Assembly (NCBI RefSeq): GCF_900117415.1
Contig: NZ_FPEI01000006.1
Span: forward strand, 2,647,001-2,711,000
Origin: Hyphomicrobium sp. CS1BSMeth3
GTDB taxonomy: Bacteria; Pseudomonadota; Alphaproteobacteria; Rhizobiales; Hyphomicrobiaceae
DNA length: 64,000 bases
Reading direction: 5' to 3'
How positions within the stretch are numbered: position 1 is the stretch's first letter; every line of letters starts with the position of its first letter. Below, in pieces: positions 6,389-32,979 of the stretch. The notes beneath the pieces were generated by a model. It was not told where the DNA came from and ran no database searches. It worked only from the letters and a program-made list of their open reading frames with translations. The translations under genes were made by a program, and so were the position numbers.

Positions 6389-7675
6389 CTAACCCATCAC
6401 CACCTTGGGCAACCAAAGTGCGAGATCAGGCCATACCATCAGCGACCCAACGAGCGCCAGCATGGCGGCGACGAACGGCAAAGCGCCCCAAATGACGTCA
6501 GTAACCGGTCCGCGGTCCCGCATGCCTTGCACGACGTAGAGATTGAGCCCCACCGGCGGTGTAATGAGCGCGACCTCGATCATTACCGTCAGCACAATGC
6601 CCCACCAGATCGGATCCCAACCGAGTGCGAAGACGATGGGCGCGATGAACGGCGTCGTCAGGATCATCATGGAGATCGTCTCCATGAAGCAGCCGAGCAC
6701 GACATAGAACGCGATGATGAGCAGCATCGTGCCGTACTTGCCGAGGCCGAGACTCTGGATCCATTGCCCAAGCCCGTCCGTGAGGCCGATCGCGGCGAGC
6801 ACGAAGTTGAGGAACTGCGCCGCCATGATGATCAGCATGATCATGGCGGTCGTGCGCATGGTGCCTTCGGCGACCGCGCGCAGCATCGAGAAGGAAAGCC
6901 GACGCTCCCAGACGGCGAGGACGAGCGCTGCCACGACACCGAGCGAGGCCGCCTCCGTCGGCGTGGCCCAACCTGCATAGATCGAGCCGACCACGGCCAA
7001 GAAGATGAACATCGGCGGCAGCAGGTCCGGCAAGACGCGGATGCGCTTCGCCCACGACGTCTCCATAGGCGCCCCGCCTTTGCGGCGATCGATCAGGCAG
7101 AAAAGCAGAATGATCAGCATGAACAGGGCGGCAAGCAGCGCCCCCGGAATGAAGCCGGCGAGGTACAGACGCGGCACCGACGTGTTGGTCAGCAGGCCGT
7201 ACAGGATGAAATTGATCGAGGGCGGAATGAGAATGCCGAGCGTGCCGCCCGCGGCAATACTGCCGAGGAAGAGACGCTCGTCGTAGCCGCGCTGCCTGAT
7301 CTGGGGAATGGCGACGGTGCCGATCGTCGCGGCTGTCGCCACGCTCGAGCCGGAAGTCGCGGCAAACATCGCCGAGGTGCCGATGTTGGCGTGCATGAGG
7401 CCGCCCGGCAGCCACGAAAGCCACTGCGCCGCTGCGTTGTAGACGCGCTCGGCAATGCCGGCCCTGAGCAGAATCTCGCCGAGCATCACGAACAACGGGA
7501 TCGCAATCAGGATGTACTCGCTCGACGAGTTCCAGATGATCTCGCCCATGGCGCGCTGCAGCGGCATGGCGGCGAAGAAATCGTTCAGCGCCAGACCGAG
7601 AACGCCCATGACGGCGGCGACGGGCACGCTGATCGCAAGCAGGCCGAGCAGAAGCAGAAGAGCAGTTGCCAGCAT
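6389..7675 (-). CDS. dctM: TRAP transporter large permease subunit (DctM)
   Basis: 428-aa integral membrane protein of the DctM/TRAP large permease family, with about 12 hydrophobic segments, which forms the ion-coupled translocation path in the inner membrane. Conserved-looking segments include [22 protein letters not shown] and [18 protein letters not shown]. The start at [12 protein letters not shown] is chosen over an upstream in-frame ATG because the extra 38 residues are hydrophilic, arginine-rich and overlap dctQ. The gap to dctQ is 5 bp. Substrate cannot be read from the permease; the oxoprolinase downstream suggests a carboxylate such as 5-oxoproline. Confidence 0.93.
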
Positions 7676-18137: not shown

Positions 18138-18288
18138 AGCTCGGATCTGCACCCGACGGCATACTGGCGGGGCGCGGGCTCTGCTAGTGTCATGCGTGCC
18201 GTCTGATCTGGCGGCATCTCATCTCCACTGCCCATCCGACGGCGGCGACGCCCGCCCATATCTCCTCCCATCACGCGGCGGGCCTCTC

Positions 18289-19020
18289 ATGACTGCGGAC
18301 GTTCTGCTCATCATCGCCGGCGCCTTTGCCGGCGGGCTCGTCAACGGGCTCACCGGCTTCGGGACTGGCATGACGGCGCTCGTGCTCTGGCTGCACGCCC
18401 TCCCCGTCACGGTCGCGGCAACGCTCGTGCTCGTCTGCTCTGTCGTGGCGCAACTGCAGTCGCTGCCCTCGATCTGGCACGCGCTCGACTGGCGCCGCCT
18501 TGCGCCTTTTCTCATTGGCGGTTTGATCGGCATTCCGCTCGGGACGTGGCTGCTCGTGATGGTCTCGGTGCAAGCAGTGAAGCTCGGCGTCGGCATCGTC
18601 GTCACGACCTATTGCACGGTCATGCTGCTCGGCAGCTTCCGCCCGACTGTCCATTGGGGCGGCCGCATTGCGGATGGCATCATCGGCCTTGCAGGCGGCA
18701 TTCTCGGCGGGCTCGCGGGGCTCTCCGGCGCGCTGCCGACGATCTGGGCGAGCCTGCGGAACTGGGGCAAGGATGCGCGCCGCGCCGTCTTCCAGGGCTT
18801 CAACCTGACGATCCTGACGGTCTCGCTCATGGCACACGCCGCCGCGGGCCTCGTGACGGCAGAGCTCGGTCGCGCGGTGCTCTTCGCGCTGCCCGGCACG
18901 CTCATCGGCGCCTTCATCGGCCAGCGCATTTACCGCCGCCTCGATGATCACCGCTATGACCGGCTCGTGCTCGCCATCCTGCTCGTCGCCGGGCTCACGT
19001 TGCTCTGGTCGAGCCTCTGA
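18289..19020 (+). CDS. Sulfite exporter TauE/SafE family protein
   Basis: 243-aa membrane protein with seven or eight hydrophobic segments of the TauE/SafE family, implicated in export of sulfite, sulfoacetate and other organosulfonates. Two internal half-repeats are visible, each with a glycine-rich turn (GGLVNGLTGFGTGMTAL near residue 14 and GILGGLAGLSGALPTI near 138). The start MTADVLLIIAG is chosen for the hydrophobic N terminus. It is convergent with the MFS gene (9-bp gap). It lies about 3 kb from the sHdr operon, whose product is sulfite, so a sulfite-export role is plausible but not shown. Confidence 0.85.
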   Translation: MTADVLLIIAGAFAGGLVNGLTGFGTGMTALVLWLHALPVTVAATLVLVCSVVAQLQSLPSIWHALDWRRLAPFLIGGLIGIPLGTWLLVMVSVQAVKLGVGIVVTTYCTVMLLGSFRPTVHWGGRIADGIIGLAGGILGGLAGLSGALPTIWASLRNWGKDARRAVFQGFNLTILTVSLMAHAAAGLVTAELGRAVLFALPGTLIGAFIGQRIYRRLDDHRYDRLVLAILLVAGLTLLWSSL

Positions 19021-22114: not shown

Positions 22115-22555
22115 TCACGTACAGCCGGAGAACCCGTCGGCCGTCATCTTCGCTTCATAGGGCTGGGTCACGGCACTGCCGAGGGTCAGGCCCGGTTTCA
22201 CCGCGCCCCAATCCTCCGGCTTCAGGATGATGAACCAGCCCTTGTCGTAGGGATCGGTGTTGGCCAGCGTCGGATCGGCGACGAGCGCATCGTTGATCGC
22301 CACGACCTCGCCGGCGGCGGCAGACTTCGCCGGTCCCACCCACTTGCCGCTCTCGACCGTCGCGCAGCTCTTGCCCGCGTCGACCTTTCGCCCGACCTTC
22401 TTCGGTGTGAAGGCAACGAGCTGGCCGGCCATGGCCGTCGCGACCGTGGTCATGCCGACCTTCACTGTGCCGTCGCCCTGCTCCTGAAACCAGATGTGGT
22501 TGTCCACATCGTAGAGCAGATGGTCCGGGAGGTTGCAGCCATTCACGACGGGCAT
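22115..22555 (-). CDS. lbpA: Lipoate-binding protein of the sHdr system (GcvH-like)
   Basis: 146-aa GcvH-fold lipoyl carrier. The lipoylation site is lysine 71 in ESGKWVGP, unlike the ESVKAA-type motif usual in glycine-cleavage H protein. No gcvT or gcvP gene is near; instead the gene closes a full sHdr cluster, where GcvH-like LbpA proteins are known to be essential. The dihydrolipoyl arm is thought to carry sulfur or electrons between sHdr components. The hypothetical gene upstream ends 66 bp before it, the largest gap in the cluster, so it may also have its own promoter. C7, C64 and C145 are the only cysteines. Confidence 0.88.
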   Translation of the reverse strand: MPVVNGCNLPDHLLYDVDNHIWFQEQGDGTVKVGMTTVATAMAGQLVAFTPKKVGRKVDAGKSCATVESGKWVGPAKSAAAGEVVAINDALVADPTLANTDPYDKGWFIILKPEDWGAVKPGLTLGSAVTQPYEAKMTADGFSGCT

Positions 22556-22621
22556 TTCAGATCTCCGGCAATGCGTGAGCGTCGCCGCTCGTTATCTCGG
22601 GTTCCGGCCTCTCGACAAGGC

Positions 22622-23062
22622 TCAATGTCCAGCCGCGCGCAAGGGCCGCGCGGAACAGCAGAATTCGCCGAGCCCCGCCACTTCCAGCTTGCCGCCGACG
22701 AACAGCATGAGATGCCGCGCGATCATGGCCGCGAGCGTCAGGCGGTGGCCCGTATCCGGATGGTCAGGCTCGAAGGCAATCAGGTTGTAGTGGTAGACGA
22801 GCTCGCGGCAAGTCTCGCGACAGGCATTGAAGGACGGCTCGCCACGCGCCCCCTGGCGATGCAGCGCGAGCAGGCGGAAGCCCTCCTTGCGCGCGTCCGT
22901 CGGGGCTTCTCCACGCGCGCGGACCCACGCTTCGAGCACACGCTCACCGATCGCCAGCAGCTCCGCGGCCGCGCTCGCCGGCGCAGTGCTGCCGTCCATG
23001 GCAATGGCGTCGATGCGTTCCTCGATACCGGCAAAAGCCGGGTACGCTGCCTGTCCACTCAT
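22622..23062 (-). CDS. Hypothetical protein in the sHdr operon
   Basis: 146-aa soluble protein, unrecognised. It is helical in character, with cysteines at CRETCREL (about 81-85) and a C-terminal EFCCSARPLR containing a vicinal cysteine pair. Segments RHLMLFVGGKLEVAG and YNLIAFEPDHPDTGHRL look structured. The start overlaps the methyltransferase stop (ATGA), so translation is coupled, and lbpA follows. The vicinal C-terminal cysteines and the location would suit a thiol or persulfide role, but this is only a guess. Confidence 0.7.
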   Translation of the reverse strand: MSGQAAYPAFAGIEERIDAIAMDGSTAPASAAAELLAIGERVLEAWVRARGEAPTDARKEGFRLLALHRQGARGEPSFNACRETCRELVYHYNLIAFEPDHPDTGHRLTLAAMIARHLMLFVGGKLEVAGLGEFCCSARPLRAAGH

Positions 23063-23703
23063 GCCGCCCTCCGCGCCACCAGACGCACGACGTGCGCCCG
23101 GCCCTGATGCCGGGTGCCCTCATCGAGCCTCACGTCCGCCTCATGGAGAAGCTCGATGTCCGCGCCTGCGAAATCTTCCCGCAGGAGCTCGGCGGTGTAA
23201 AGCATCTCGGGTGGTGGACCGCCGCGACGTCCAGCCTTGCGGTTCTCGACATGCTTCGGCGTAAAGGCTTCGAGCAGCAGGATCCCGCCCGGCTTCAGCG
23301 CGCCAAGCATCCGATGGTGCATGGACTGGCGCACGTGCGGCTCGAAATGCACGAAGATCGCGGCAATGCCGTCGAAAGTGCCGACCGGCCAATGCCAGGA
23401 ATCCAGATTGGCGTTCACGAAATCGAGGTGCACGCCGCGCTCGGCCGCCAAGGCCCGAGCCTTTTCGACGCCGATAGCCGAGGCCTCGACGCTCGTCACG
23501 GCAAAGCCCTGCTCCGCCAGCCACACGCCATTGCGCCCTTCGCCATCGCCGGGCACCAGGATGCGGCCTTTGGGTGCGAAGCGATGCGCCTCGGCAGTTA
23601 GGAATATATTCGGCGCCGTACCGAAGATGTAGCCAGCCTCGACGTACTGGCGGTCCCACTTCGGGCCCGTCACAGTATCTCGCGCCGCCGTGCCGCCGCT
23701 CAT
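23059..23703 (-). CDS. Class I SAM-dependent methyltransferase
   Basis: 214-aa methyltransferase of the TehB/thiopurine-methyltransferase-like type. The AdoMet motif I is ILVPGDGEGRNGVWLAEQG near residues 48-66, with an acidic residue at the end of strand 2 (VEAS) and motif IV at FDGIAAIFVHF. It resembles the small methyltransferases that act on thiols, selenium or tellurium. The start overlaps the shdrB2 stop (ATGATGA; either ATG is possible). The placement within the sHdr transcript suggests methylation of a sulfur compound, such as volatile thiol detoxification, but no substrate can be read from the sequence. Confidence 0.85.
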   Translation of the reverse strand: MSGGTAARDTVTGPKWDRQYVEAGYIFGTAPNIFLTAEAHRFAPKGRILVPGDGEGRNGVWLAEQGFAVTSVEASAIGVEKARALAAERGVHLDFVNANLDSWHWPVGTFDGIAAIFVHFEPHVRQSMHHRMLGALKPGGILLLEAFTPKHVENRKAGRRGGPPPEMLYTAELLREDFAGADIELLHEADVRLDEGTRHQGRAHVVRLVARRAA

Positions 23704-24647
23704 CATATCAGCCGCTTCTCGATGATGAGATCCATCGAGTCCGAGATATTCGTGTGAATGCCGAGCGCACGCGGGCCGATGCCGAGCGCCAGGCCGAGAA
23801 GCTGCGTGAAATAGAGCACCTTCACGTTGGTCTTCTTGCCGAAGCGCTTCTCGGCACGCACCTGGTGCATCTCGAGGCCCGTATGACAGGTCGGGCATTC
23901 CGTGGCGATCACCTCCGCGCCGGACGCCTCCGCCGCCTGCAGGATATTGAGCACGAGCTTGGTCGAGGTATCGCTGTCGGAGAGCGTATGCGCGCCGCCG
24001 CAGCAGGCGGTCTTCAGTGGGAAGCTCACGTTCTCGGCGCCAGCGGCCGCAAGGAGATCATCCATGAAGTGCGGCTGGCTGGTCGACTCCGATCCGGGAC
24101 CCTGGTCCTTCTCGGGGAAGATGTGGCGGGGGCGCACGTACATGCAGCCGTAGTAGTTCGCAATCTTGAGGCCTGCGAGCTTGCCCTTCGTGCGCTCGCG
24201 CAATCCATCCTCGCCAACGGTCGCCTTCAGCCAGTCGAGTGCGTGGATCGTCTCAGCCTCGCCCGCTTTATACGCCTTATGACCGGCCTTCGTGCTCAGC
24301 TTCTCGACGACCTCGACGGACTTCGGATCATGCGCGAGATCGTGCTCGGCCTTCTTGAGATTGTGGTAGCAGCCATTGCACGGCGCCATGACGACGTCCA
24401 CGCGATCCTCGTTCACGGCCTGCGAGAGCACGCGCGCTGAGAGATACGTCTGGATCTTGGGATCGACGTTCTTGACCTCCATAGCCCCGCAGCAGTTCCA
24501 ATTGGAGACCTCGCGCAGGCCGAGGCCGAGCTTCTTCGCGATCGCGCGTGTCGAGACATCGTAGCCGTTGCCCGTGCCTTCGAGCGCGCAGCCCGGATAG
24601 TAGCCGACGCTGCGGTACTTCTTCGCCTTGTCCGTCACGTCGACCAT
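23703..24647 (-). CDS. shdrB2: sHdrB2, heterodisulfide-reductase B-like subunit
   Basis: 314-aa HdrB-type subunit with two complete CCG domains. The first has C20, C52-C53, C90 and C93; the second has C168, C215-C216, C251 and C254. Each matches the CCG pattern that binds a noncubane [4Fe-4S] cluster. In the sHdr complex this is one of two B subunits thought to carry out chemistry on protein-bound sulfur in the cytoplasm. The start MVDVTDKAKK lies 4 bp after the DUF3303 gene. Both cluster motifs are intact, unlike sHdrB1, whose cysteine pattern is looser. Confidence 0.92.
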   Translation of the reverse strand: MVDVTDKAKKYRSVGYYPGCALEGTGNGYDVSTRAIAKKLGLGLREVSNWNCCGAMEVKNVDPKIQTYLSARVLSQAVNEDRVDVVMAPCNGCYHNLKKAEHDLAHDPKSVEVVEKLSTKAGHKAYKAGEAETIHALDWLKATVGEDGLRERTKGKLAGLKIANYYGCMYVRPRHIFPEKDQGPGSESTSQPHFMDDLLAAAGAENVSFPLKTACCGGAHTLSDSDTSTKLVLNILQAAEASGAEVIATECPTCHTGLEMHQVRAEKRFGKKTNVKVLYFTQLLGLALGIGPRALGIHTNISDSMDLIIEKRLI

Positions 24648-24651
24648 GTCA

Positions 24652-24936
24652 TCACTCCGGGGCAGCGAACTTGCCTTCGACAAGCTCGCGCGTCTGTTTC
24701 GAGGGCACGACGGGCACGATCTCGAATGAGGCAAGATCACCCCAGTGCAGGATCCACGCCTGAATGAGCCGCGCGTCGTCGCATTCCATGAGCTGGAAGC
24801 AGCGATCGAAATTCGGCTCGATCCAACTATCGATGTACTTGAGGCCCTCGGGCAGCCCGCGGCCCTTGTCGCGCAAGTGCTGATAGATGGGCTTGGGATT
24901 GCAGTCCTTGAAGCGCTCGATGATCATGAACAGCAT
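24652..24936 (-). CDS. DUF3303 domain protein
   Basis: 94-aa small alpha/beta protein of the DUF3303 family: MLFMIIERFKD start, GLKYIDSWIEPNFDRCFQLME centre and SFEIVPVVPS end. The fold is expected to be dimeric alpha-beta barrel-like. Its function is unknown. It lies between shdrC2 and shdrB2 with 4-bp gaps on each side, so it is surely co-translated. The start is MLFMIIERF; an upstream in-frame methionine would overlap shdrC2. Confidence 0.85.
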   Translation of the reverse strand: MLFMIIERFKDCNPKPIYQHLRDKGRGLPEGLKYIDSWIEPNFDRCFQLMECDDARLIQAWILHWGDLASFEIVPVVPSKQTRELVEGKFAAPE

Positions 24937-24940
24937 GGCG

Positions 24941-25717
24941 TCACTCCGCGGCTTCACGCACGGGCGCATGTGATTGCTGCGGCTTGCTCTTGCCCGCGAT
25001 CACGGCCTTCTGCTCGCTCTCGACCTCGTGGATGTAATCCTCGAGTGCGATGCGGGCTTTGTCCCAGCCGCGCGTCTTGGGCTTAAAGATCTGCGCCCAG
25101 GCCATCTTGATCCCCCACTTCACGGGAAGGCGCTTGGCAATGGCAAAGCCGATCGCGGTCAGCCAGTCCTGCATGAGCGGCTGCTTCGTCTTGCGCAGGA
25201 AGTTCTGCAAGACTTCGGTGTCCTCGATGCGCCCGCGCTGCACGATCTGGTGCGTGAACTCCTCGTCGAAGATGTGCGAGGGCGAAGGCGGCGTATAGCC
25301 CTTCATGGTGAGCCAATGGGCCGTCGCCTTCATCACGCCTTCGGGCTCGACGTCGCGCGGGCAGATATGCGTGCACTTGTGACAGGACACACACTGCCAG
25401 ATGATGTCCTTGTCGCGGAGAAGCTCGCTCTCCATGCCCATACGGATCAGGTAGATCCAGTAGCGCGGGTTGAAGCGCGGCTCGATGGCATTGACCGTGC
25501 AAGCGTTCGTGCACGAGCCGCACTGCCAGCAGCGATGGATCTTGTCGCCACCCGGCATGGCGGCGATCTCGTCCTCGAGGTTCTCGTTGTAGTCCGTGAC
25601 GACGCGCGACTCGATGAAGGTCGACCAGTGACCGGAGACGTCGATGCCCTCGATCACGAGATTGTCGTGCGTCTTGAGGTTCTCGGGCCGGATGAGCGAT
25701 TTCTCGTGAATGGGCAT
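24941..25717 (-). CDS. shdrC2: sHdrC2, heterodisulfide-reductase C-like iron-sulfur subunit
   Basis: 258-aa electron-transfer subunit with two classical [4Fe-4S] motifs: C63-C66-C69-C73 (RCWQCGSCTNACTVN) and C109-C112-C115-C119 (CVSCHKCTHICPRD). The C-terminal half is basic and helical and includes RLPVKWGIKMAWAQIFKP. In Hdr-type complexes HdrC relays electrons between HdrB and HdrA. It follows the conserved hypothetical shdrH with a 10-bp gap and precedes the DUF3303 gene by 4 bp. Confidence 0.92.
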   Translation of the reverse strand: MPIHEKSLIRPENLKTHDNLVIEGIDVSGHWSTFIESRVVTDYNENLEDEIAAMPGGDKIHRCWQCGSCTNACTVNAIEPRFNPRYWIYLIRMGMESELLRDKDIIWQCVSCHKCTHICPRDVEPEGVMKATAHWLTMKGYTPPSPSHIFDEEFTHQIVQRGRIEDTEVLQNFLRKTKQPLMQDWLTAIGFAIAKRLPVKWGIKMAWAQIFKPKTRGWDKARIALEDYIHEVESEQKAVIAGKSKPQQSHAPVREAAE

Positions 25718-25727
25718 CGGTCCGGCC

Positions 25728-26594
25728 TCAGTTCAACTGTTTGATCGCATCGAGCGAGAGGGCATCACCGTCGATCGCGCCGCGCCCGCGCCGCTTGGCG
25801 ATGCGGTCGAGGCCAAGGATGCGGCGCGTGTGCTCGAGCGGATCGGCCTCGGCCGAGAAGTCCGTCTTCAGATAGGCGCCGCCCTGCGCATTGATGTAGT
25901 CGCCATAAATCTGCGCCTGGAGCAGATCGACGTACCAGAGCATGTCGCGGAAAATGCCGTTGTCCGAGAGGAACTGCGACAGCTCCTCGCGCAGCACGAG
26001 GAAGGTCTCGTGGCCGTCCGGAATGTCGATGACGATATGGTCGACGTCATCGCCTGTCGCCGGATCGTGCCAGATCTCACGCAGCACGCCTGTGTTCGTG
26101 CGCGTGTCCCAAACCCAGCGATGCATGAGCGGATAGTGCTCGGGGTACACGCCGTGCAGTAGCTCGGAGGCAAGATCGCGCACGAAGCGATTGGTCTTGT
26201 CCTCGGGGAAGGTTTTCACGAACGCGGCGACGCGGGCATCGCCCGTGCCCGGTACATGCGCATCGCTCAGCAACACGGTGATCGCGTCGCGTACACGCGC
26301 CCAACCGGCCGCATCGATCAGGCCTGCAATCCGGCGGCGTACGGTCGCCATGAGAATGACGATGTCCTCGAAGGCATCGCGCTCGATGTGCGCAGCTTTG
26401 CCCCCAGCGAGGCGATCCTGCAGCACATCGGACTTGAGCTTCACGGCCGCCGCGAAACGCTCGATGCCGCCGATCGGCTCGGCAGCGCGGATCAGCGCTT
26501 CCAATGCCAGCCGCAGCTTGGCGCCGGACAAGTGCAGCACGGGGCGAGCTGCAAGCCCCTCCATCGCGCCGATGTGCTGAGCCGCCGCCATCAT
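25728..26594 (-). CDS. Conserved sHdr-locus protein of unknown function (Hyp position)
   Basis: 288-aa soluble protein with no catalytic motif that I recognise. In known sHdr clusters a hypothetical gene stands between shdrA and shdrC2, and this gene holds that position (with OsmC inserted before it). Visible segments include LLHGVYPEHYPLMHRWVWDT, HIVIDIPDGHETFLVLREEL and GIFRDMLWYVDLLQAQIYGD. It is cysteine-free, so it is not an iron-sulfur protein; a structural or assembly role is possible. Its start overlaps the OsmC stop by 4 bp. Confidence 0.8.
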   Translation of the reverse strand: MMAAAQHIGAMEGLAARPVLHLSGAKLRLALEALIRAAEPIGGIERFAAAVKLKSDVLQDRLAGGKAAHIERDAFEDIVILMATVRRRIAGLIDAAGWARVRDAITVLLSDAHVPGTGDARVAAFVKTFPEDKTNRFVRDLASELLHGVYPEHYPLMHRWVWDTRTNTGVLREIWHDPATGDDVDHIVIDIPDGHETFLVLREELSQFLSDNGIFRDMLWYVDLLQAQIYGDYINAQGGAYLKTDFSAEADPLEHTRRILGLDRIAKRRGRGAIDGDALSLDAIKQLN

Positions 26595-26983
26595 ACCACC
26601 AGCTCACTGTGAGCGACGCTCATCGGGTTCGACAGCGCCTTGTGCACGGGGCAGGCCTGGGCGACGCGGAGCAGACGCTCGCGAATGTCCGGCGCGAGAT
26701 CGCTCGTGCCGAAATCGATGTCATAGCGGAGCACCGGCGCATCCGCGCGCGACTGGTCGTACTTCACGCGCACTTCGAGATCCGGCAGCGCCCAGCCGTG
26801 CCGGTCGGTATACATGCGGATCGTCATGGCAATGCAGGTCGCGAGCGAGGCTTCAAGCAGCGCGAACGGCTTGAAGCCGGCCTCGCGCCCGCCATCGGCG
26901 ACGATCGCATCGGCAAGCCCCGTGTGCTTGCCGTCGCTGAACTCGATCGTATAGGGCTCGGCATGGCTGCGCGTGACGATCAT
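26591..26983 (-). CDS. OsmC/Ohr family protein
   Basis: 130-aa OsmC-fold protein. The two family cysteines are present: EASLATCIAMTIRMY near residue 52 and QACPVHKAL near residue 112. OsmC/Ohr proteins reduce organic hydroperoxides through a cysteine pair, and some act on persulfide or polysulfide species. It starts 10 bp after shdrA and overlaps the following gene. The start MIVTRSHAEP is set by the family N terminus; an upstream methionine would overlap shdrA by 60 bp. Confidence 0.88.
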   Translation of the reverse strand: MIVTRSHAEPYTIEFSDGKHTGLADAIVADGGREAGFKPFALLEASLATCIAMTIRMYTDRHGWALPDLEVRVKYDQSRADAPVLRYDIDFGTSDLAPDIRERLLRVAQACPVHKALSNPMSVAHSELVV

Positions 26984-26993
26984 CAGACCGGTC

Positions 26994-28046
26994 CTACTCC
27001 GCCGCTTCGAGAAGACGCCCTTCGGCGGCTGCCAGCGCGGAGAGCGCCGCCCCATTGGCCTGCGCGATCGAGTCGTCGATCGTCTCCGGCCCGATGGCCG
27101 CGCCGGCGACGAACACGCCCGGCCGCGAGGTCGCGCCCATGATGCCGTACGTGTCCTTGCGCGCGATGTAGCCGTGTTTGTGCAGCTCGACGTCGAACAC
27201 GGCCGAAATCGTCATGTTGTCGACGTTCGGGTCCATGCCGATGGCGTGCACGACCATGTCGAAGGGAATGGTGATCGGCCGCTTCACGAGCGTGTCCTCG
27301 CCCTTGACGATGAGCTGGCGGCCGTCACCCGTCACTTCCGCAATGCGCGCCTTGATGTACTTGACCTTGAACTCCTCCTGGCTGCGCCAGTAGTAGTCCG
27401 TCTCGTAGTGCCCGAACGTGCGGATATCCATGTAGTAGATGTAGACGTGGCAGTCCGGCAGCTCCTCGCGGATCTCCATCGCGAGGTTGGCCGAGACCGT
27501 GCAGCAGATCTTCGAGCACCACTCGCGGCCGATCTGGCGGTCGCGCGAGCCGACGCAGAGCAGGATCGCGACGCGCTTCGGCTTGCGGCCATCAGACGGA
27601 CAGCGCACGCCCTGACCTGACGAGATCATCTGCTCGACCTGCGTCGTCGTCACGACATCGGGAAAGAGGCCGAAGCCCCACTCCGGCTTGTTGACGCTGT
27701 CGAAGTGCGTGAAGCCGGTCGTGAGGAGCGCCGCGCCGGCTTCGACGCGCGAGCCGTCCGACAGCTCGGCGATGAAATTGCCGGGCGTGCCGGAGAAGCG
27801 CGAGACGGTCGTGCCGAGCTTGCGCGTGACGCTCGGGTTGCTCTCGACGCGCGTGACCATGCTGCCGATCGCATCTTTGGCCCAGCGGCCCGAAGGCACG
27901 AGCTTGGCGTAACCCGAATGAATCGGTGCGCCGCCGAGGATGGCCGTCTTCTCGACCAGCACCGAGGAACGCCCGACAGTCGAAAGTGCGTGCGCCGCCG
28001 CGAGGCCCGCCGGCCCGCCGCCGACGATGAGAATGGGCTTTGTCAT
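26994..28046 (-). CDS. shdrA: sHdrA, heterodisulfide-reductase A-like flavoprotein
   Basis: 350-aa FAD protein of the HdrA type. The dinucleotide-binding fingerprint GGGPAGLAAAHAL is at residues 9-21. A cluster motif CVGSRD...GREWCSKICC supplies C164, C177, C181 and C182. A second Rossmann region and the C-terminal GVFVAGAAIGPETIDDSI close the FAD domain. At 350 residues it is the compact form seen in sulfur oxidizers, lacking the extra ferredoxin domains of methanogen HdrA. It is the probable electron hub of the complex. It starts 2 bp after the LysE-family gene. Confidence 0.93.
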   Translation of the reverse strand: MTKPILIVGGGPAGLAAAHALSTVGRSSVLVEKTAILGGAPIHSGYAKLVPSGRWAKDAIGSMVTRVESNPSVTRKLGTTVSRFSGTPGNFIAELSDGSRVEAGAALLTTGFTHFDSVNKPEWGFGLFPDVVTTTQVEQMISSGQGVRCPSDGRKPKRVAILLCVGSRDRQIGREWCSKICCTVSANLAMEIREELPDCHVYIYYMDIRTFGHYETDYYWRSQEEFKVKYIKARIAEVTGDGRQLIVKGEDTLVKRPITIPFDMVVHAIGMDPNVDNMTISAVFDVELHKHGYIARKDTYGIMGATSRPGVFVAGAAIGPETIDDSIAQANGAALSALAAAEGRLLEAAE

Positions 28047-28048
28047 AC

Positions 28049-28687
28049 TCAAAGGCTCCGCTGAAGGAAGGCCAGCCTGATACCGAGCAGGACGAAGAGG
28101 CTGCCGAGCGCGCGCTCCATCCATGTGCGCACGACACTGCCGGCACTCAGCGCGGCCGAGGCGCGCGCCGTGAACCACGCGACCATGAGGCACACGATCG
28201 TGCCGGTCGCGCAGAAGATCAGGCCGAGCACGACGAAGGCGAGCGCCTTCGATGGCGCGCCCGCCGAGATGAACTGCGGCAGGAAGGCCAGGAAGAAAAG
28301 CGCCACCTTGGGATTGAGCGCGTTCGTGAGAAAGCCCTGCAGGAAGATGCCGCGGAGCGAGATCGCGGCCCTTCCATTCGATGCAGCAGCGTCGCTCACA
28401 CCCGCGTTGCGCAGAAGCGAGATGCCGACCCACACGAGATAGACGGCGCCGACGAGCTTCAGAATGAAGAAGGCCTCGGCCGATGTCGAAAGGATCGCCG
28501 ATAAGCCCAGCGCCGCCGCCGCAATGTGCACGAAGCAGCCCGCGGTGATCCCGAGCGCCGCGACGGCGCCCGCACGCGCGCCGAGCTGCGCACTGCGGCC
28601 CATGATGTACGCCATGTCCGGGCCGGGCGTGATGTTGAGCAGCAGCCCCGCGGCCACGAACAGCCAGAGATCCGTAATACCGAGCAT
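28049..28687 (-). CDS. LysE/RhtB family exporter
   Basis: 212-aa membrane protein with five or six hydrophobic segments and the LysE/RhtB hallmarks: LLLNITPGPDMAYIMGRS near residues 15-32 and the NALNPKVALFFLAFLPQFI segment near 125-143. The family exports amino acids and related small molecules. It sits between shdrB1 (3-bp gap) and shdrA (2-bp gap), splitting two core subunits, so it is translated with them. Export of a sulfur-containing amino acid or a thiol is plausible, but only by location. Confidence 0.9.
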   Translation of the reverse strand: MLGITDLWLFVAAGLLLNITPGPDMAYIMGRSAQLGARAGAVAALGITAGCFVHIAAAALGLSAILSTSAEAFFILKLVGAVYLVWVGISLLRNAGVSDAAASNGRAAISLRGIFLQGFLTNALNPKVALFFLAFLPQFISAGAPSKALAFVVLGLIFCATGTIVCLMVAWFTARASAALSAGSVVRTWMERALGSLFVLLGIRLAFLQRSL

Positions 28688-28690
28688 CGC

Positions 28691-30082
28691 CTACTCTCCG
28701 GGCGGCGGCGGAGGGATGACCTCGCGCTTGATCGGCTTGAAGCCCGGCCCCGACGTAATGCGCAGGCGCGGATCATAGAGCTGGTCGGCAGCGCCCGACT
28801 TGATCTGCTCGAGGTACTGCTCGAACTCGGCCTTCTTGGCCTTCCAGTCGATGCCGAGCTTTTCGAGCAGCCGCTCGATCGGGCTCGCGTGCCAGTGCGT
28901 CTGCACGATCTTGTAAGGGTCGGCGCCGCAGACGAGCGCGGCGAACTGGCAGTCCGCCAGGACGGGCAGCTCATAAGGCTTACCCGCCGCGCGACCGATC
29001 CATTGGTTCTTGTCGAGCGTGGTGATGCAGCCCGTGTCATGGCCGATCATGACGTCGGCCTGGGCCTCCTCGACAGCGACCCTGATCTTGCGGTCGATGG
29101 CGAAGGAGCGCGTGAACTCGCGCTCGGAAATGATGTGGCGGAAGCCGAAGCCGCAGCAGTCGTACCACGTCTTGTAGTCGATCACATTGGCGCCGAGCCG
29201 CTGGACGAGCCCGGTCGAGACCGCGACGCGGTTCCCTTCGAGGATCTCGTCATCGTAGATCGCATCCTCCGGCACCATCTTGTAGACGTGGCAGGCCGGA
29301 TGGATCGTCGCGCGGACGGCTGAAGCGTCGATCGTCTGATGATCGGCAATGCGGTGGCGCATGACGTGCAACCACTCGGAGTAGTGCACGACCTCCTCGG
29401 GGATGAGCAGCTTGCCATCGACGAGACGGCCGAGCTTGCCGAGGATCTTCGTCACGCTCTCGCGTAGCTTCGCGGAATGAATGAGATAGGCGCGCACTTC
29501 CTTGTAGTTGCCGAAGGACGTGCCGCAGTGCACGAGCGGGTAGTAGTAGCCCTCGGGCAGGCCCTGCGCCTTCGCCGAGACGTACGCCTGATGGAAATTG
29601 CGCAGGAAGACGGCGGCAAGGCTCTCGATGTTGCCGATGCCTGAGCCGTGATAGTTCCACGCGGTGCAGGATGTCTGATCGGTCTCGTCGAGATAGCTCG
29701 TGCCGATCTTGTTCTGCAGCCAGAGCAGCGAGACGGGATAGCCTGGGATGTTGCCGCACTGGCCGCAGCTCTTGTGATGCCAGAGCTGGGTCGTCGGAAC
29801 GCGCTTCGTCCAGCCGTAGAGCGTCTTGGCCTCGATCGGCTCGTGCTGGTCCGTGATGCGATGGACCTTGATCTGGCCCTCTTTCTCGAGCTGCCACATG
29901 GCATCGCGCACGTCCTCGACGCGATCCTTGTTGGTCAGCATGGAGCGGCGATCGATCCGCTGCTCGACCCAGGCTGTGGCCGTCGCGGCCTCGCTTGCGG
30001 AAAGGTTGGCGGGCTTCCACTCGGGACCATGGCCCGTGAAGCGCTCGCCGTTCTGCGAAGGGCGATGGGTCGGATTGCTCAT
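28691..30082 (-). CDS. shdrB1: sHdrB1, heterodisulfide-reductase B-like subunit
   Basis: 463-aa CCG-type protein, longer than sHdrB2. Cysteines fall in two groups: C106, C109, C139 and C186 (in KSCGQCGNIPG, SCTAWNY and HCGTS), and C264, C309-C310, C352, C378 and C385 (in HPACHVYKM, YDCCGFGF and TGCITTL). Only the second group looks like a complete CCG domain; the first is a variant. Two distinct B subunits in one cluster are a mark of sHdr. The start overlaps the VOC-protein stop by 4 bp. The C-terminal tail is proline-rich. Confidence 0.92.
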   Translation of the reverse strand: MSNPTHRPSQNGERFTGHGPEWKPANLSASEAATATAWVEQRIDRRSMLTNKDRVEDVRDAMWQLEKEGQIKVHRITDQHEPIEAKTLYGWTKRVPTTQLWHHKSCGQCGNIPGYPVSLLWLQNKIGTSYLDETDQTSCTAWNYHGSGIGNIESLAAVFLRNFHQAYVSAKAQGLPEGYYYPLVHCGTSFGNYKEVRAYLIHSAKLRESVTKILGKLGRLVDGKLLIPEEVVHYSEWLHVMRHRIADHQTIDASAVRATIHPACHVYKMVPEDAIYDDEILEGNRVAVSTGLVQRLGANVIDYKTWYDCCGFGFRHIISEREFTRSFAIDRKIRVAVEEAQADVMIGHDTGCITTLDKNQWIGRAAGKPYELPVLADCQFAALVCGADPYKIVQTHWHASPIERLLEKLGIDWKAKKAEFEQYLEQIKSGAADQLYDPRLRITSGPGFKPIKREVIPPPPPGE

Positions 30083-30612
30083 TTGCTCCTCCTGCCGCCT
30101 GCCGGCTTCGGCTTTTCTTTCGGCTTCGCCGCGGATTGCGGCGTGCCAGCCATCATCTCATCGAGGCGCTTCTGCATCTTCTTCGGCGAGACATCCTCCA
30201 TGCGCGTCTGGATCATCCAGACATAGCCGAAGGGATCCTCCACCTGCCCGGCGCGATCGCCGTAGAACTCGTCCTGCACCGGCCGCCTGATCGTGGCACC
30301 CGCTGCCAGTGCGCGCTCGACGACCGCGTCGACGTCAGCGACATACAGGCACATGGTCACGGTCGTACCGCCGAGACTGCGCGGACCGAGAACGCCCATC
30401 TCGGGGAACTCGGCGGAAAGCATCACGCAGCTCTCGCCGAAGAGGAGCTCGGCATGACCGACGCGATCGCCCATCATGAGGCGGTAGCGCTCCTTGGCAT
30501 CGAAGGCCTTCTCGTAGAAGTCGATGGCAGCAGCAGCATCGGCCACGCGCAGATACGCCATGGCGTCGCTGTAGCCTTTCGGCGGCTTGTACTTCACTTT
30601 TGTCATACGCAT
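30079..30612 (-). CDS. VOC (glyoxalase/PhnB-like) family protein
   Basis: 177-aa vicinal-oxygen-chelate protein of the PhnB-like type. The babAB segments are AMAYLRVADAAAAIDFYEKAF near residue 20, then GHAELLFGESCVMLSAEFPE, and DRAGQVEDPFGYVWMIQT near 140. A short basic tail follows (KPKEKPKPAGGRRSK). VOC enzymes include glyoxalases and isomerases; this subtype is poorly defined. The start is placed at MRMTKVKYKP, where a GAGG ribosome site is 6-7 bp upstream. It lies between shdrC1 and shdrB1, overlapping shdrB1 by 4 bp. Confidence 0.88.
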   Translation of the reverse strand: MRMTKVKYKPPKGYSDAMAYLRVADAAAAIDFYEKAFDAKERYRLMMGDRVGHAELLFGESCVMLSAEFPEMGVLGPRSLGGTTVTMCLYVADVDAVVERALAAGATIRRPVQDEFYGDRAGQVEDPFGYVWMIQTRMEDVSPKKMQKRLDEMMAGTPQSAAKPKEKPKPAGGRRSK

Positions 30613-30650
30613 GTCCGCCTCAATGACGTGAGATGTGCCATGCTGCACTC

Positions 30651-31409
30651 TCAGTCATCGTCCTCGGCGTCCTCCTGCTCCTCGAGGAAATCTTTCCAGT
30701 CCTCGCGCTTCTCTTCCATGATGTCGGTGATGACGTCGAACAGGTTCTCGTCGATGCCCTCGAGCTGGTCGAGGACGCCGGTCATCTCCCAGATGGTGTA
30801 GAGCTCGACCGAGGTCTTGAGATTGACCTCCCACGCAGTTTCCGTGGTGTTGAGCGTCGCCATCGGGATCGCCTTGCGCAGCAGCTTGAGCGGCGCATTG
30901 ACCTTGGAGATGTTAGGCCCCCAGTCGGCGAAGTGTTGGGGATTGATCATGTCCGGCGCGAGCTGATTGCCCGTCGAGATCAGCTTCAGCATCACGCGGC
31001 TGAATGGGCGCAGCACGTCCTTCGCCGACTGCATCTGATGCTTGATCGCGACCTCGCGCATGAGCATGACGAGGCCACCCGGCGAATTGCGGAAGGGGCA
31101 GCGTGCGGCGCACGTGTAGCACTGGGCGCAGGACCAGATCTTTTCCTGCATGGCATCGTAGATGCCTTCGAGGTTCTCGGTCCAAAGGAGCTGGACGATC
31201 TCGCGTGGCGAGAAGTCGTAGTAGTGCGCGGCCGGGCAGGTCGCGGTGCAGATGCCGCAGTTGAGGCAGCCATGCAGCTCGTGGTCGAAGCGCATGTCCT
31301 CCTGCAGATCGCGGAAGATGGCTTCGAGCTTGGCGCGCGGCACGGGCGGCTTGTCCGAGACCGGATCGCCGATGAAATCCTGCACGCGTGTTGCGGTGGC
31401 CTCAGCCAT
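30651..31409 (-). CDS. shdrC1: sHdrC1, heterodisulfide-reductase C-like iron-sulfur subunit
   Basis: 252-aa subunit with two [4Fe-4S] motifs: C48-C51-C54-C58 (CLNCGICTATCPAA) and C94-C97-C100-C104 (CAQCYTCAARCPF). The C-terminal tail is strongly acidic (EEQEDAEDDD). It is the first Hdr subunit in the operon and starts 10 bp after the dsrE stop. Its partner is expected to be sHdrB1. A 38-bp gap then precedes the VOC gene. Confidence 0.93.
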   Translation of the reverse strand: MAEATATRVQDFIGDPVSDKPPVPRAKLEAIFRDLQEDMRFDHELHGCLNCGICTATCPAAHYYDFSPREIVQLLWTENLEGIYDAMQEKIWSCAQCYTCAARCPFRNSPGGLVMLMREVAIKHQMQSAKDVLRPFSRVMLKLISTGNQLAPDMINPQHFADWGPNISKVNAPLKLLRKAIPMATLNTTETAWEVNLKTSVELYTIWEMTGVLDQLEGIDENLFDVITDIMEEKREDWKDFLEEQEDAEDDD

Positions 31410-31419
31410 CGGCGCGACC

Positions 31420-31800
31420 TCAGTAGCTCAGGACCCGGGTGTCTTCGCCTTCCATGACCTCCTCGATGAGGTAGGCACCGCCAACGATCCCCGAGCACTC
31501 GGGGATCAGGTCCTCCTGCTTCATGTCGAAGAGATCGAGGTTCGGCGAGCAGCAGAAGAACTTCACGCCCGCCTCGTGCGCGTCCTTGATGAAATCGTAG
31601 ACGCTCTTGGGGCTGCCGGGCTTCACGACGAGTGTCTCGGCAACGCCCTTCTTCATGAGGCGGCCGGCCGTCGCGGTGCAGATGACCTCGACCTCATAGT
31701 CCATGGCGGCGGCAACCGAGGCCTGGAATATCGGCGCGCCCAGCTCCTCGCCATTGCGCGGGTCCGTATTCGCCATGATGATCACGAGCTTCTTGGCCAT
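31420..31800 (-). CDS. dsrE: DsrE-family sulfurtransferase
   Basis: 126-aa DsrE/TusD-like protein, first gene of the sHdr operon. Cysteines are C41, C83-C84 (KFFCCSPNLDL) and C102 (IPECSGIVGGAYL). The vicinal C83-C84 pair is at the position where DsrE-type proteins carry a persulfide. In sHdr organisms, DsrE3-type proteins with TusA and rhodanese pass sulfane sulfur to the sHdr complex; TusA and rhodanese are not in this window. The start MAKKLVIIM has a GGGAGG site 7 bp upstream. The subtype (DsrE3A or DsrE3C) is not settled here. Confidence 0.88.
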   Translation of the reverse strand: MAKKLVIIMANTDPRNGEELGAPIFQASVAAAMDYEVEVICTATAGRLMKKGVAETLVVKPGSPKSVYDFIKDAHEAGVKFFCCSPNLDLFDMKQEDLIPECSGIVGGAYLIEEVMEGEDTRVLSY

Positions 31801-31974: not shown

Positions 31975-31990
31975 ATTCGCATGTGTGAAT
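31975..31990. promoter_or_regulatory. Imperfect palindrome next to the sHdr promoter, possible operator
   Basis: ATTCGCATGTGTGAAT is a 16-bp dyad with one mismatched pair and a 2-bp centre, just upstream of the predicted -35 box and in an AT-rich stretch (followed by ATATATAAC). Known sHdr operons are controlled by ArsR-type repressors that bind short dyads. No such regulator gene lies in this window. It could also act on the divergent exporter gene. Confidence 0.4.
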
Positions 31991-32055: not shown

Positions 32056-32979
32056 ATGTCGGCCGAGGCCAAGGCGCCGCCGGATGAGCGCGGGCGCATC
32101 GTCTGGGCCGTCACCTGGATGGTCGGGGCGCTGATCTCTTTCACGCTGGTGGCGATCGCGGGCCGTTCAGCCGCGCGCGGGGCGGACGCCCTGCAGATTG
32201 CCGTCTGGCGAACTCTGATCGGGTTCTCCATCCTCGTGCTGATCATCAAGGCACAAGGCATCGCGTTCGGCAGCCTCACATCCAGACGACCGGGCCTGCA
32301 GGTGGTCCGCAATCTCGTTCACTTCACGGCGCAGTTCAGTTGGCTCTACGCGTTGACGCGGATGACGCTCGCCGAGCTGACGGCGCTCGAGTTCACGGCA
32401 CCATTGTGGGTCGCACTGCTCGCCCCATTCCTGCTCGGCGAACGATTGACCGCACTGCGGCTGGGCGCTGCCGTGCTCGGCTTCATCGGCGTGCTTATCG
32501 TGGTGCGCCCAGGCGCCATTCCGCTCAGCGAAGGCACACCCTTCGGTATGATTGCGGCGATCGGGTTCGCGCTGTCCATGCTGACGACGAAGCGCCTTCT
32601 CATTGGCGACAATGCCCTCACGATCCTTTTCTGGATGCAGGGCCTCCAGATCCTGATCGGCCTCGCCGTCATCCTCGGCCGCGCGACGCTGGGGTATGGA
32701 CCAGGGCTCCCGATGCCCGACTTCATCACGTTCTGCTGGCTCGCCGGCGTTGGCGCGTTCGGTCTTACGGCACACTACTCGCTCGCGAAGGCCTTCACCT
32801 ATGCCGATGCGATCATTGTCGCGCCGATGGATTTTCTGCGGCTGCCGCTGATGGTGCTTGTCGGCGTCGTGCTCTACGCCGAGCCGCTCGACTTCTGGGT
32901 ATTGGGTGGCGGCCTCATCGTTGTCGTCGCCAACTTTCTGAACATCCGCGGCGAGCGCCAGCGCACGGGCCGAGGCTGA
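32056..32979 (+). CDS. EamA/DMT-family transporter (first of tandem pair)
   Basis: 307-aa drug/metabolite transporter with ten hydrophobic segments in two EamA halves. Each half ends in the typical LEFTAPLWVALLAPFLLGER and APMDFLRLPLMVLVGVVLYAEPL segments. It is divergent from the sHdr operon. A close paralogue follows 1 bp later; both share similar motifs in the same places (for example LAELTALEFTAPLWVALLAP against LAEVFALEFTTPLWVALLAP). Substrate unknown. Confidence 0.9.
   Translation: MSAEAKAPPDERGRIVWAVTWMVGALISFTLVAIAGRSAARGADALQIAVWRTLIGFSILVLIIKAQGIAFGSLTSRRPGLQVVRNLVHFTAQFSWLYALTRMTLAELTALEFTAPLWVALLAPFLLGERLTALRLGAAVLGFIGVLIVVRPGAIPLSEGTPFGMIAAIGFALSMLTTKRLLIGDNALTILFWMQGLQILIGLAVILGRATLGYGPGLPMPDFITFCWLAGVGAFGLTAHYSLAKAFTYADAIIVAPMDFLRLPLMVLVGVVLYAEPLDFWVLGGGLIVVVANFLNIRGERQRTGRG

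Follow-up and report, generated by a model that had tools for sequence, protein, structure and literature searches.

A type I sHdr-LbpA operon of Hyphomicrobium with five inserted genes that are probably separable from the sulfur pathway

Gene content of the interleaved operon

We analysed an operon for sHdr-dependent sulfur oxidation in a 64,000-nt stretch of the genome of Hyphomicrobium sp. CS1BSMeth3 (assembly GCF_900117415.1, contig NZ_FPEI01000006.1, positions 2,647,001 to 2,711,000), here called the window. Between 31800 and 22115, the minus strand carries the genes in the order dsrE-shdrC1-(VOC)-B1-(LysE)-A-(OsmC)-H-C2-(DUF3303)-B2-(methyltransferase)-shdrI-lbpA, with the inserted genes in brackets (Table 1). 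All the genes reported in an initial annotation of the sequence were present, on the strand and in the order described, and the compact spacing it reported was also borne out. With the gene starts as used, 10/13 junctions from dsrE to lbpA overlap or span ≤10 bp, and 11/13 do so if the ATGs at 26983 (OsmC) and 24936 (DUF3303) are the starts; the widest gaps separate C1 from VOC (38 bp) and shdrI from lbpA (66 bp). The six genes C1, B1, A, H, C2 and B2 all lie, interleaved, within ~7.7 kb of one strand. Within the operon, a consensus scan gave no terminator-like site for the minus strand; its sole match on that strand lies upstream of the operon, at 32012-31997. Searches of Rfam (gathering threshold) and for tRNA genes gave no matches.

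The genome holding the window (G000, 6.0 Mb) was compared with four others of the same genus, G024, G025, G026 and G027. The full gene order is identical in G026 (locus L046), and G027 (L047) has the same order over the part covered by its contig, from within the LysE gene onward. The interleaving is therefore not an assembly artefact of a single genome.

In the sections of PMC11582611 consulted, type I sHdr systems are recognized by shdrC1B1AHC2B2 in one syntenic cluster, and type II systems by shdrC1B1AHB3 with etfAB. The locus in the window combines a syntenic six-gene cluster with an LbpA encoded alongside, intact iron-sulfur ligands, and LipS1, LipS2 and sLpl(AB) elsewhere in the genome, and is a complete type I sHdr-LbpA locus, as first annotated. 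C1, B1, A and H are shared with type II systems, but the operon does not belong to that type, because C2 and B2 are separate genes and neither EtfA nor EtfB is found among the operon proteins. The reported integrity of the iron-sulfur cysteines was confirmed against locus L055 of genome G040, in which every cysteine of the window's C1 (8), C2 (8), B1 (10) and B2 (10) is matched by a cysteine. We infer that L055 is the locus of H. denitrificans, as its gene order matches the published type I order (lipS1-lipT-lipS2-slpl(AB)-lipX-dsrE3C-shdrC1B1AHC2B2-I-lbpA2); it ends with P450, TusA and SoxT genes (names by reading) on the other strand. The operon resembles L055 in its core genes and their order, in its iron-sulfur cysteines and in the kind of operator upstream of dsrE. 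It differs from L055 in its five inserts, in that the lip genes are single and scattered, and in that SoxB is encoded elsewhere in the genome.

The initial annotation counted five of six junctions between core genes as occupied. Against its own core list this count was correct, but the 146-aa gene between shdrB2 and lbpA is not an insert, since it holds this place in 30/30 observable loci outside the genus. It is most likely the gene named sHdrI in PMC11582611, the available part of which describes sHdrH and sHdrI as soluble proteins of unknown function. By the locus tags in the portion of PMC10451225 consulted, dsrE3C (Hden_0688) and Hden_0697 have eight genes between them; L055 has eight genes in the matching interval, and the homologue of the 146-aa gene is the seventh, which supports the assignment. 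With this gene as a regular member, the true inserts number five: VOC, LysE, OsmC, DUF3303 and the methyltransferase.

Outside the genus we collected 31 sHdr loci, 13 from the family, 10 from the order and 8 from the class, which were obtained by searching 103, 397 and 385 genomes, respectively, with the sHdrH protein or its profile. A weak sHdrH match in G061 (E 4e-4) was dropped as spurious, as was a weak match to sHdrI in G066 that contained internal stops. By match extent, 220/232 observed junctions outside the genus were ≤200 bp, and dsrE lay immediately 5′ of C1 at all 26 such junctions observed. A homologue of an insert was found at only three of the 232: VOC at C1|B1 in L058 and L059 (2/28 observed) and the methyltransferase at B2|shdrI in L056 (1/30). 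No homologue occupied the corresponding junction for LysE (0/29), OsmC (0/29) or DUF3303 (0/30). VOC is absent from L050, whose genus label is also that of L058 and L059. A tree built from eight sHdr proteins placed the genus, weakly (40), with g10 and not with the VOC or methyltransferase carriers; because the carriers are not sisters, the shared junctions point to repeated insertion, transfer or repeated loss. Homologues of the methyltransferase, many of them weak, occur in 44/103 family genomes. Among the 30 methyltransferase loci read, seven belong to an sHdr locus or to what is left of one (five of this genus, G077 and G076). The inserts are thus mostly particular to this genus. Other lineage-specific genes stand between sHdr core genes in L060 (about 7011-7649) and L057 (3161-3766), presumably DUF559-like and Uma2-like, respectively, which suggests that sHdr junctions accept insertions.

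Table 1. Features of the operon and its surroundings, in window coordinates
Feature	Position	Strand	Basis
dsrE (DsrE3C-type sulfurtransferase by position), operon gene 1	31420..31800	-	Pfam DrsE_2/DsrE
shdrC1, two 4Fe-4S sites	30651..31409	-	family matches; 8/8 Cys common to L055
Insert 1: VOC/glyoxalase-fold protein	30079..30612	-	Pfam Glyoxalase
shdrB1	28691..30082	-	CCG domain, HdrB-like; Cys conserved
Insert 2: LysE/RhtB-type exporter	28049..28687	-	Pfam LysE
shdrA, flavoprotein	26994..28046	-	family matches
Insert 3: OsmC-like protein	26591..26983	-	Pfam OsmC
shdrH	25728..26594	-	relatives in other sHdr loci
shdrC2, two 4Fe-4S sites	24941..25717	-	family matches; Cys conserved vs L055
Insert 4: DUF3303 protein	24652..24936	-	Pfam PF11746
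shdrB2	23703..24647	-	two CCG stretches; Cys conserved
Insert 5: S-adenosylmethionine-dependent methyltransferase (TPMT/TehB-like)	23059..23703	-	family matches
shdrI (146 aa)	22622..23062	-	constant place between B2 and lbpA; alignment of 35
lbpA, lipoate-binding GcvH-like protein	22115..22555	-	Pfam GCV_H
Candidate SqrR/SoxR-type operator ATTC-N8-GAAT, between dsrE and divergent EamA gene	31975..31990		sole exact match in the 64-kb window
Divergent EamA-type exporter, sharing the intergenic operator with the operon	32056..32979	+	Pfam EamA; kept in G024, G026
TauE/SafE-type exporter in the vicinity of the operon; may export sulfite	18187..19020	+	Pfam TauE

sHdrH matched neither Pfam nor NCBIfam, and LbpA carries a candidate lipoyl lysine in what we take to be the characteristic ESGKW context. 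The TauE gene is retained in G024, G025, G026 and G027.

The locus in the related genome G024

In G024 (~98% complete, ~20 contigs) the VOC, LysE, OsmC, DUF3303, methyltransferase and sHdrI genes are contiguous, with 2 to 33 bp between inserts, and are flanked by the same genes as in the window (EamA; FGase-DUF1244-NUDIX-MFS-TauE). The 20-kb stretch lacks eight core genes at six places: dsrE-C1, B1, A, H-C2, B2 and lbpA. A 3′ scar, matching the last lbpA codons and the spacer that follows them, remains at the lbpA site, which indicates that lbpA was lost. Whole-genome searches of G024 yielded no sHdrH or shdrB2, nothing for shdrA beyond a 26-bit match across 69 residues, and no LipS1, LipS2, sLpl(AB) or LipX. 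Each of the four former lip sites retains its immediate neighbours on either side, which now adjoin each other with no lip gene between them; farther away gene content varies as well, one example being the second gene from the lipS1 site, which G024 also lacks. Since genes are often gained and lost here, ordinary stepwise deletion suffices to account for G024.

The most divergent member of the genus is G025, with 79-80% identity to the others, which share 86-90% among themselves. Its lbpA and the end of B2 lie at a contig end, its lipS2 and lipX have the neighbours that they have in G000, and no sHdrH or convincing shdrA was found in this 87%-complete draft. The tree joined G024 with G026 (79) and placed G000, G027, G026 and G024 apart from G025 (53). 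This rooting is weak; in combination with the lbpA scar, it leaves loss in G024 as the preferred interpretation.

We compared the sequences that remain in G024 with those of its genus-mates. For the five inserts, the ratio of non-synonymous to synonymous differences (pN/pS) was 0.10-0.27 between G000 and G024, against 0.11-0.26 between G000 and G026, whereas for sHdrI the corresponding values were 0.18 and 0.10. Of 33 near-invariant sHdrI columns (conservation of ≥96% in the remaining sHdrI sequences), five are altered in G024 (E60G, N79D, G132S, F134L and C135Y). This is the highest number among the 35 sequences, the next highest being three; its four genus-mates deviate at 0, 0, 1 and 0. Lineage-specific residues in sHdrI numbered 13 in G024 and 0, 2 and 4 in G000, G026 and G027, with 19 in the deeper lineage of G025. 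In the G024 inserts they numbered one in VOC (from three genomes), four in LysE (over 70 columns), seven in OsmC, four in DUF3303 and seven in the methyltransferase, within the range of the genus-mates bar small excesses in the last three. The difference between sHdrI and the five inserts in G024 gave a Fisher p of 0.0007, or 0.009 without VOC (G025 left out). The sHdrI frame in G024 is still open. Since sHdrI decays in G024 and the inserts show no clear decay, sHdrI appears from these comparisons to be tied to the sHdr pathway and the inserts do not.

Three cysteines of sHdrI are conserved in the alignment of 35 sequences (C81 in 35/35; C135 and C136 each in 34/35) and are candidates for sulfur binding. 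The predicted structure of sHdrI, built from four sequences, is helical with a mean predicted local distance difference test (pLDDT) score of 74.5. A Foldseek search with this model gave no match at E ≤ 0.001 (the best, at 0.41, was a HEPN domain), and we therefore drew no function from it. The sHdrH model was too poor (pLDDT 53.7) and was set aside. Searches of solved structures returned nothing significant, with best E values of 0.68 for sHdrI and 0.64 for sHdrH.

A second, different partial loss of sHdr was seen in G076, a genus-mate of the source of L056. Its locus (L222) comprises lipS1, a 357-aa gene, lipS2, sLpl(AB), a gene on the opposite strand and dsrE-methyltransferase-lbpA, without C1 to B2, sHdrI or lipX; neither sHdrH nor sHdrI had a match in G076. 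The methyltransferase stays between dsrE and lbpA.

Scattered lip genes and a candidate operator

LipS1, LipS2, sLpl(AB) and LipX are all present in G000, at four separate places, and the same is true of G026; G027 has all four genes, one of them truncated where its contig ends, and two of the four are found in G025. In the part of PMC10332631 consulted, LipS1/S2 are reported in 74.3% of sHdr bacteria.

The consensus of the SqrR site is ATTC-N8-GAAT in the text of PMC9774250 available to us. One exact match was found in the window, with 0.56 expected; as 40/100 shuffled sequences also contained one, the count is uninformative and it is the place of the site, upstream of dsrE, that is informative. 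The operator sequence is identical in G026 and G024. Among 46 stretches scanned, an exact site lies 5′ of dsrE in L049, L052, L054, L055, L056, L058, L060 and L114, and 5′ of lipS1 in L054, L055, L106 and L113; L050 starts inside dsrE and says nothing on this point. No exact site occurs anywhere in L107, L109-L112 or L124-L131, which marks the operator as mainly a feature of the family.

Three of the four single lip genes carry the same kind of site. In G000 it is located 44 bp upstream of lipS2, 11 bp upstream of lipS1 and 96 bp upstream of sLpl(AB), and in G026 the distances are 46, 12 and 112 bp; a site of this kind would fall within 150 bp of a given start with a probability of about 0.0013. 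In L055 the site precedes lipS1 by 51 bp and dsrE by 86 bp. According to the sections of PMC10451225 consulted, H. denitrificans SoxR bound 4/5 probes, among which were the shdrR-lipS1 and lipX-dsrE3C regions, the fifth being a control. The predicted sites upstream of the operon and the single lip genes resemble the sulfane-sulfur regulons of SqrR, SoxR and sHdrR; unlike in those regulons, no repressor was found in the genus stretches searched. The stretches around the former lip sites of G024 contain no exact site, and a matrix scan of them gave only weak matches (maximum 11.4, against ≥18.9 for the training sites). In 464 kb of G000 there is one other strong site, G000:C2:2558582 (L241:11582), upstream of a cysE-like gene. 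On one side of it lies the presumed cysE, for serine acetyltransferase, and on the other a gene of 598 aa that resembles polyhydroxyalkanoate synthase genes.

Interpretation and alternatives

We consider it probable that the locus is a type I sHdr-LbpA operon, dsrE-C1-B1-A-H-C2-B2-I-lbpA, that acquired five functionally separable passenger genes in this genus. The inserts are read as passengers and not as parts of the sulfur machinery because a sister species lost the sulfur genes and yet kept the inserts intact. As families suggest, a truncated Sox system would leave sulfane sulfur that reaches the cytoplasm, where the DsrE protein would hand it to the sHdr-LbpA complex; the sulfur would leave as sulfite, perhaps via the nearby TauE exporter. 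A sulfane-sulfur-sensing repressor of the SqrR/SoxR/sHdrR type may bind the candidate operator and control the operon, with sulfane sulfur as the derepressing signal. The genes for lipoylation of LbpA would have left the cluster to stand singly, and a regulon may have replaced the cluster, as the sites at three of the four lip genes suggest. The five inserts would be passengers of the transcription unit, neither needed by sHdr nor in need of it, unlike sHdrI, which would be tied to the pathway.

SoxB scored over the cut-off in 5/5 genomes of the genus and SoxC in 0/5, as expected if sulfane sulfur is oxidized in the cytoplasm. The same SoxC result led us to reject a switch to a complete Sox system (SoxCD) as the reason for the loss in G024. 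In G024 itself SoxB passes the cut-off, but SoxC and the sHdr proteins searched for do not.

New genes are known to insert into existing operons in the course of the operon life cycle. The lineage-specific genes between conserved operon genes fit this pattern; the presence of five inserts in one operon, and of a relative that loses the host pathway yet keeps the inserts, sets the present case apart. Among the papers listed in our searches of the open-access literature, none describes such an interleaved or scattered arrangement.

Several observations weigh against the passenger reading. The natural knock-out rests on one draft genome, and DsrE, C1, B1, C2 and LbpA are missing from the G024 stretch but were not searched for genome-wide. 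In G024 the operator is kept at 16/16 bases above VOC, and VOC and the methyltransferase are found at matching junctions in lineages that are not sisters; both findings may point to a role connected with sulfur. LipX has no such site, and L114 alone of 17 order and class loci outside the family has the exact site before dsrE. A two-cysteine ArsR-type repressor had no match in the genus among the selected stretches searched.

Some of these points lend themselves to a tentative alternative, in which the inserts, EamA and TauE form a set for tolerance of reactive sulfur or thiols that is independent of sHdr, answers to the same repressor and shares the transcription unit. A sulfur-responsive role of this kind is possible because G024 keeps the operator above the inserts and because VOC and the methyltransferase recur outside the genus; moreover, the inserts are constrained in G024, where the former lip sites have no exact operator. 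The insert families suit detoxification and export of thiols and small molecules. It is conceivable, if somewhat doubtful, that one repressor controls two interleaved modules, sHdr and the five-gene tolerance set, and that G024 discarded sHdr while its tolerance set stayed under the original operator. If this were true, the G024 operon would have changed from energy metabolism to detoxification. However, the operator may be kept for the divergent EamA gene alone; in L060, too, the EamA gene shares a site of this kind with dsrE. No repressor was located in the stretches searched.

Genome-wide operon breakdown in the lineage is an unlikely cause of the mixing, although the scattered lip genes would fit it and chosen stretches look loose. 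In five further stretches of G000 (100 kb, around the lip genes and SoxB) 61% of neighbours are co-directional and 15% lie ≤40 bp apart, with 61% and 25% in chosen stretches of G026 and 67% and 24% in those of G024. Likewise, nuoD has no recognisable nuo neighbours in 20-kb stretches of G000 (L212, G000:C2:2395001-2415000), G026 (L213) and G024 (L215). Over 464 continuous kb of G000, however, 72% of neighbours run in the same direction and 34% are no more than 40 bp apart, and three relatives are no higher (70%, 70% and 70%; 28%, 14% and 27%), so the larger sample does not support a general breakdown. An orthologue-adjacency test (68/264 partners adjacent among those listed) was dominated by the sHdr and lip genes and was not used. 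By protein reading, nuoD is adjoined by purC and serine-biosynthesis genes in the 20-kb stretches, and G040 (L214) has a contiguous nuo cluster.

The initial annotation had interpreted the additional genes as an extended sulfur-handling module, in which the inserts would process or export the products of sHdr and belong to its pathway. We regard this as decidedly unlikely. It agrees with the co-directional, tightly packed inserts under one candidate sulfane-sulfur operator, and with VOC and the methyltransferase at their junctions in L058, L059 and L056. The module predicts that the inserts be lost or decay with the pathway, and the opposite was found in G024: all five outlive sHdr there without clear relaxation, and it is sHdrI that decays. 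In G076, too, the methyltransferase gene kept its place between dsrE and lbpA when the sHdr genes were lost from the locus. The gene-order comparison also failed to bear the module out, as only VOC and the methyltransferase recur at the junctions of the 31 other loci, LysE, OsmC and DUF3303 are at none, and 7/30 methyltransferase loci read are associated with sHdr or its remains.

Reverse polarity, with the insert-only operon of G024 as the ancestral state and the sHdr and lip genes arriving singly at ten places, would suit the clean G024 junctions and the modest bootstrap values, but is highly improbable given the lbpA scar, the presence and decay in G024 of sHdrI, which is elsewhere tied to sHdr, the B2 end, lbpA, lipS2 and lipX of divergent G025, both of its lip genes beside G000-type neighbours, and the compact cluster found in other genera.

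G024 serves as an evolutionary test of pathway membership. sHdrI emerges as a concrete target, because it decays once sHdr is gone, including one cysteine of a near-invariant pair, and the inserts without clear decay are a warning against reading a sulfur function from operon position alone. The operator common to the scattered lip genes indicates that a cluster can dissolve while its regulation stays, and the same operator may serve as a marker for further members of the regulon, here perhaps the cysE-like gene.

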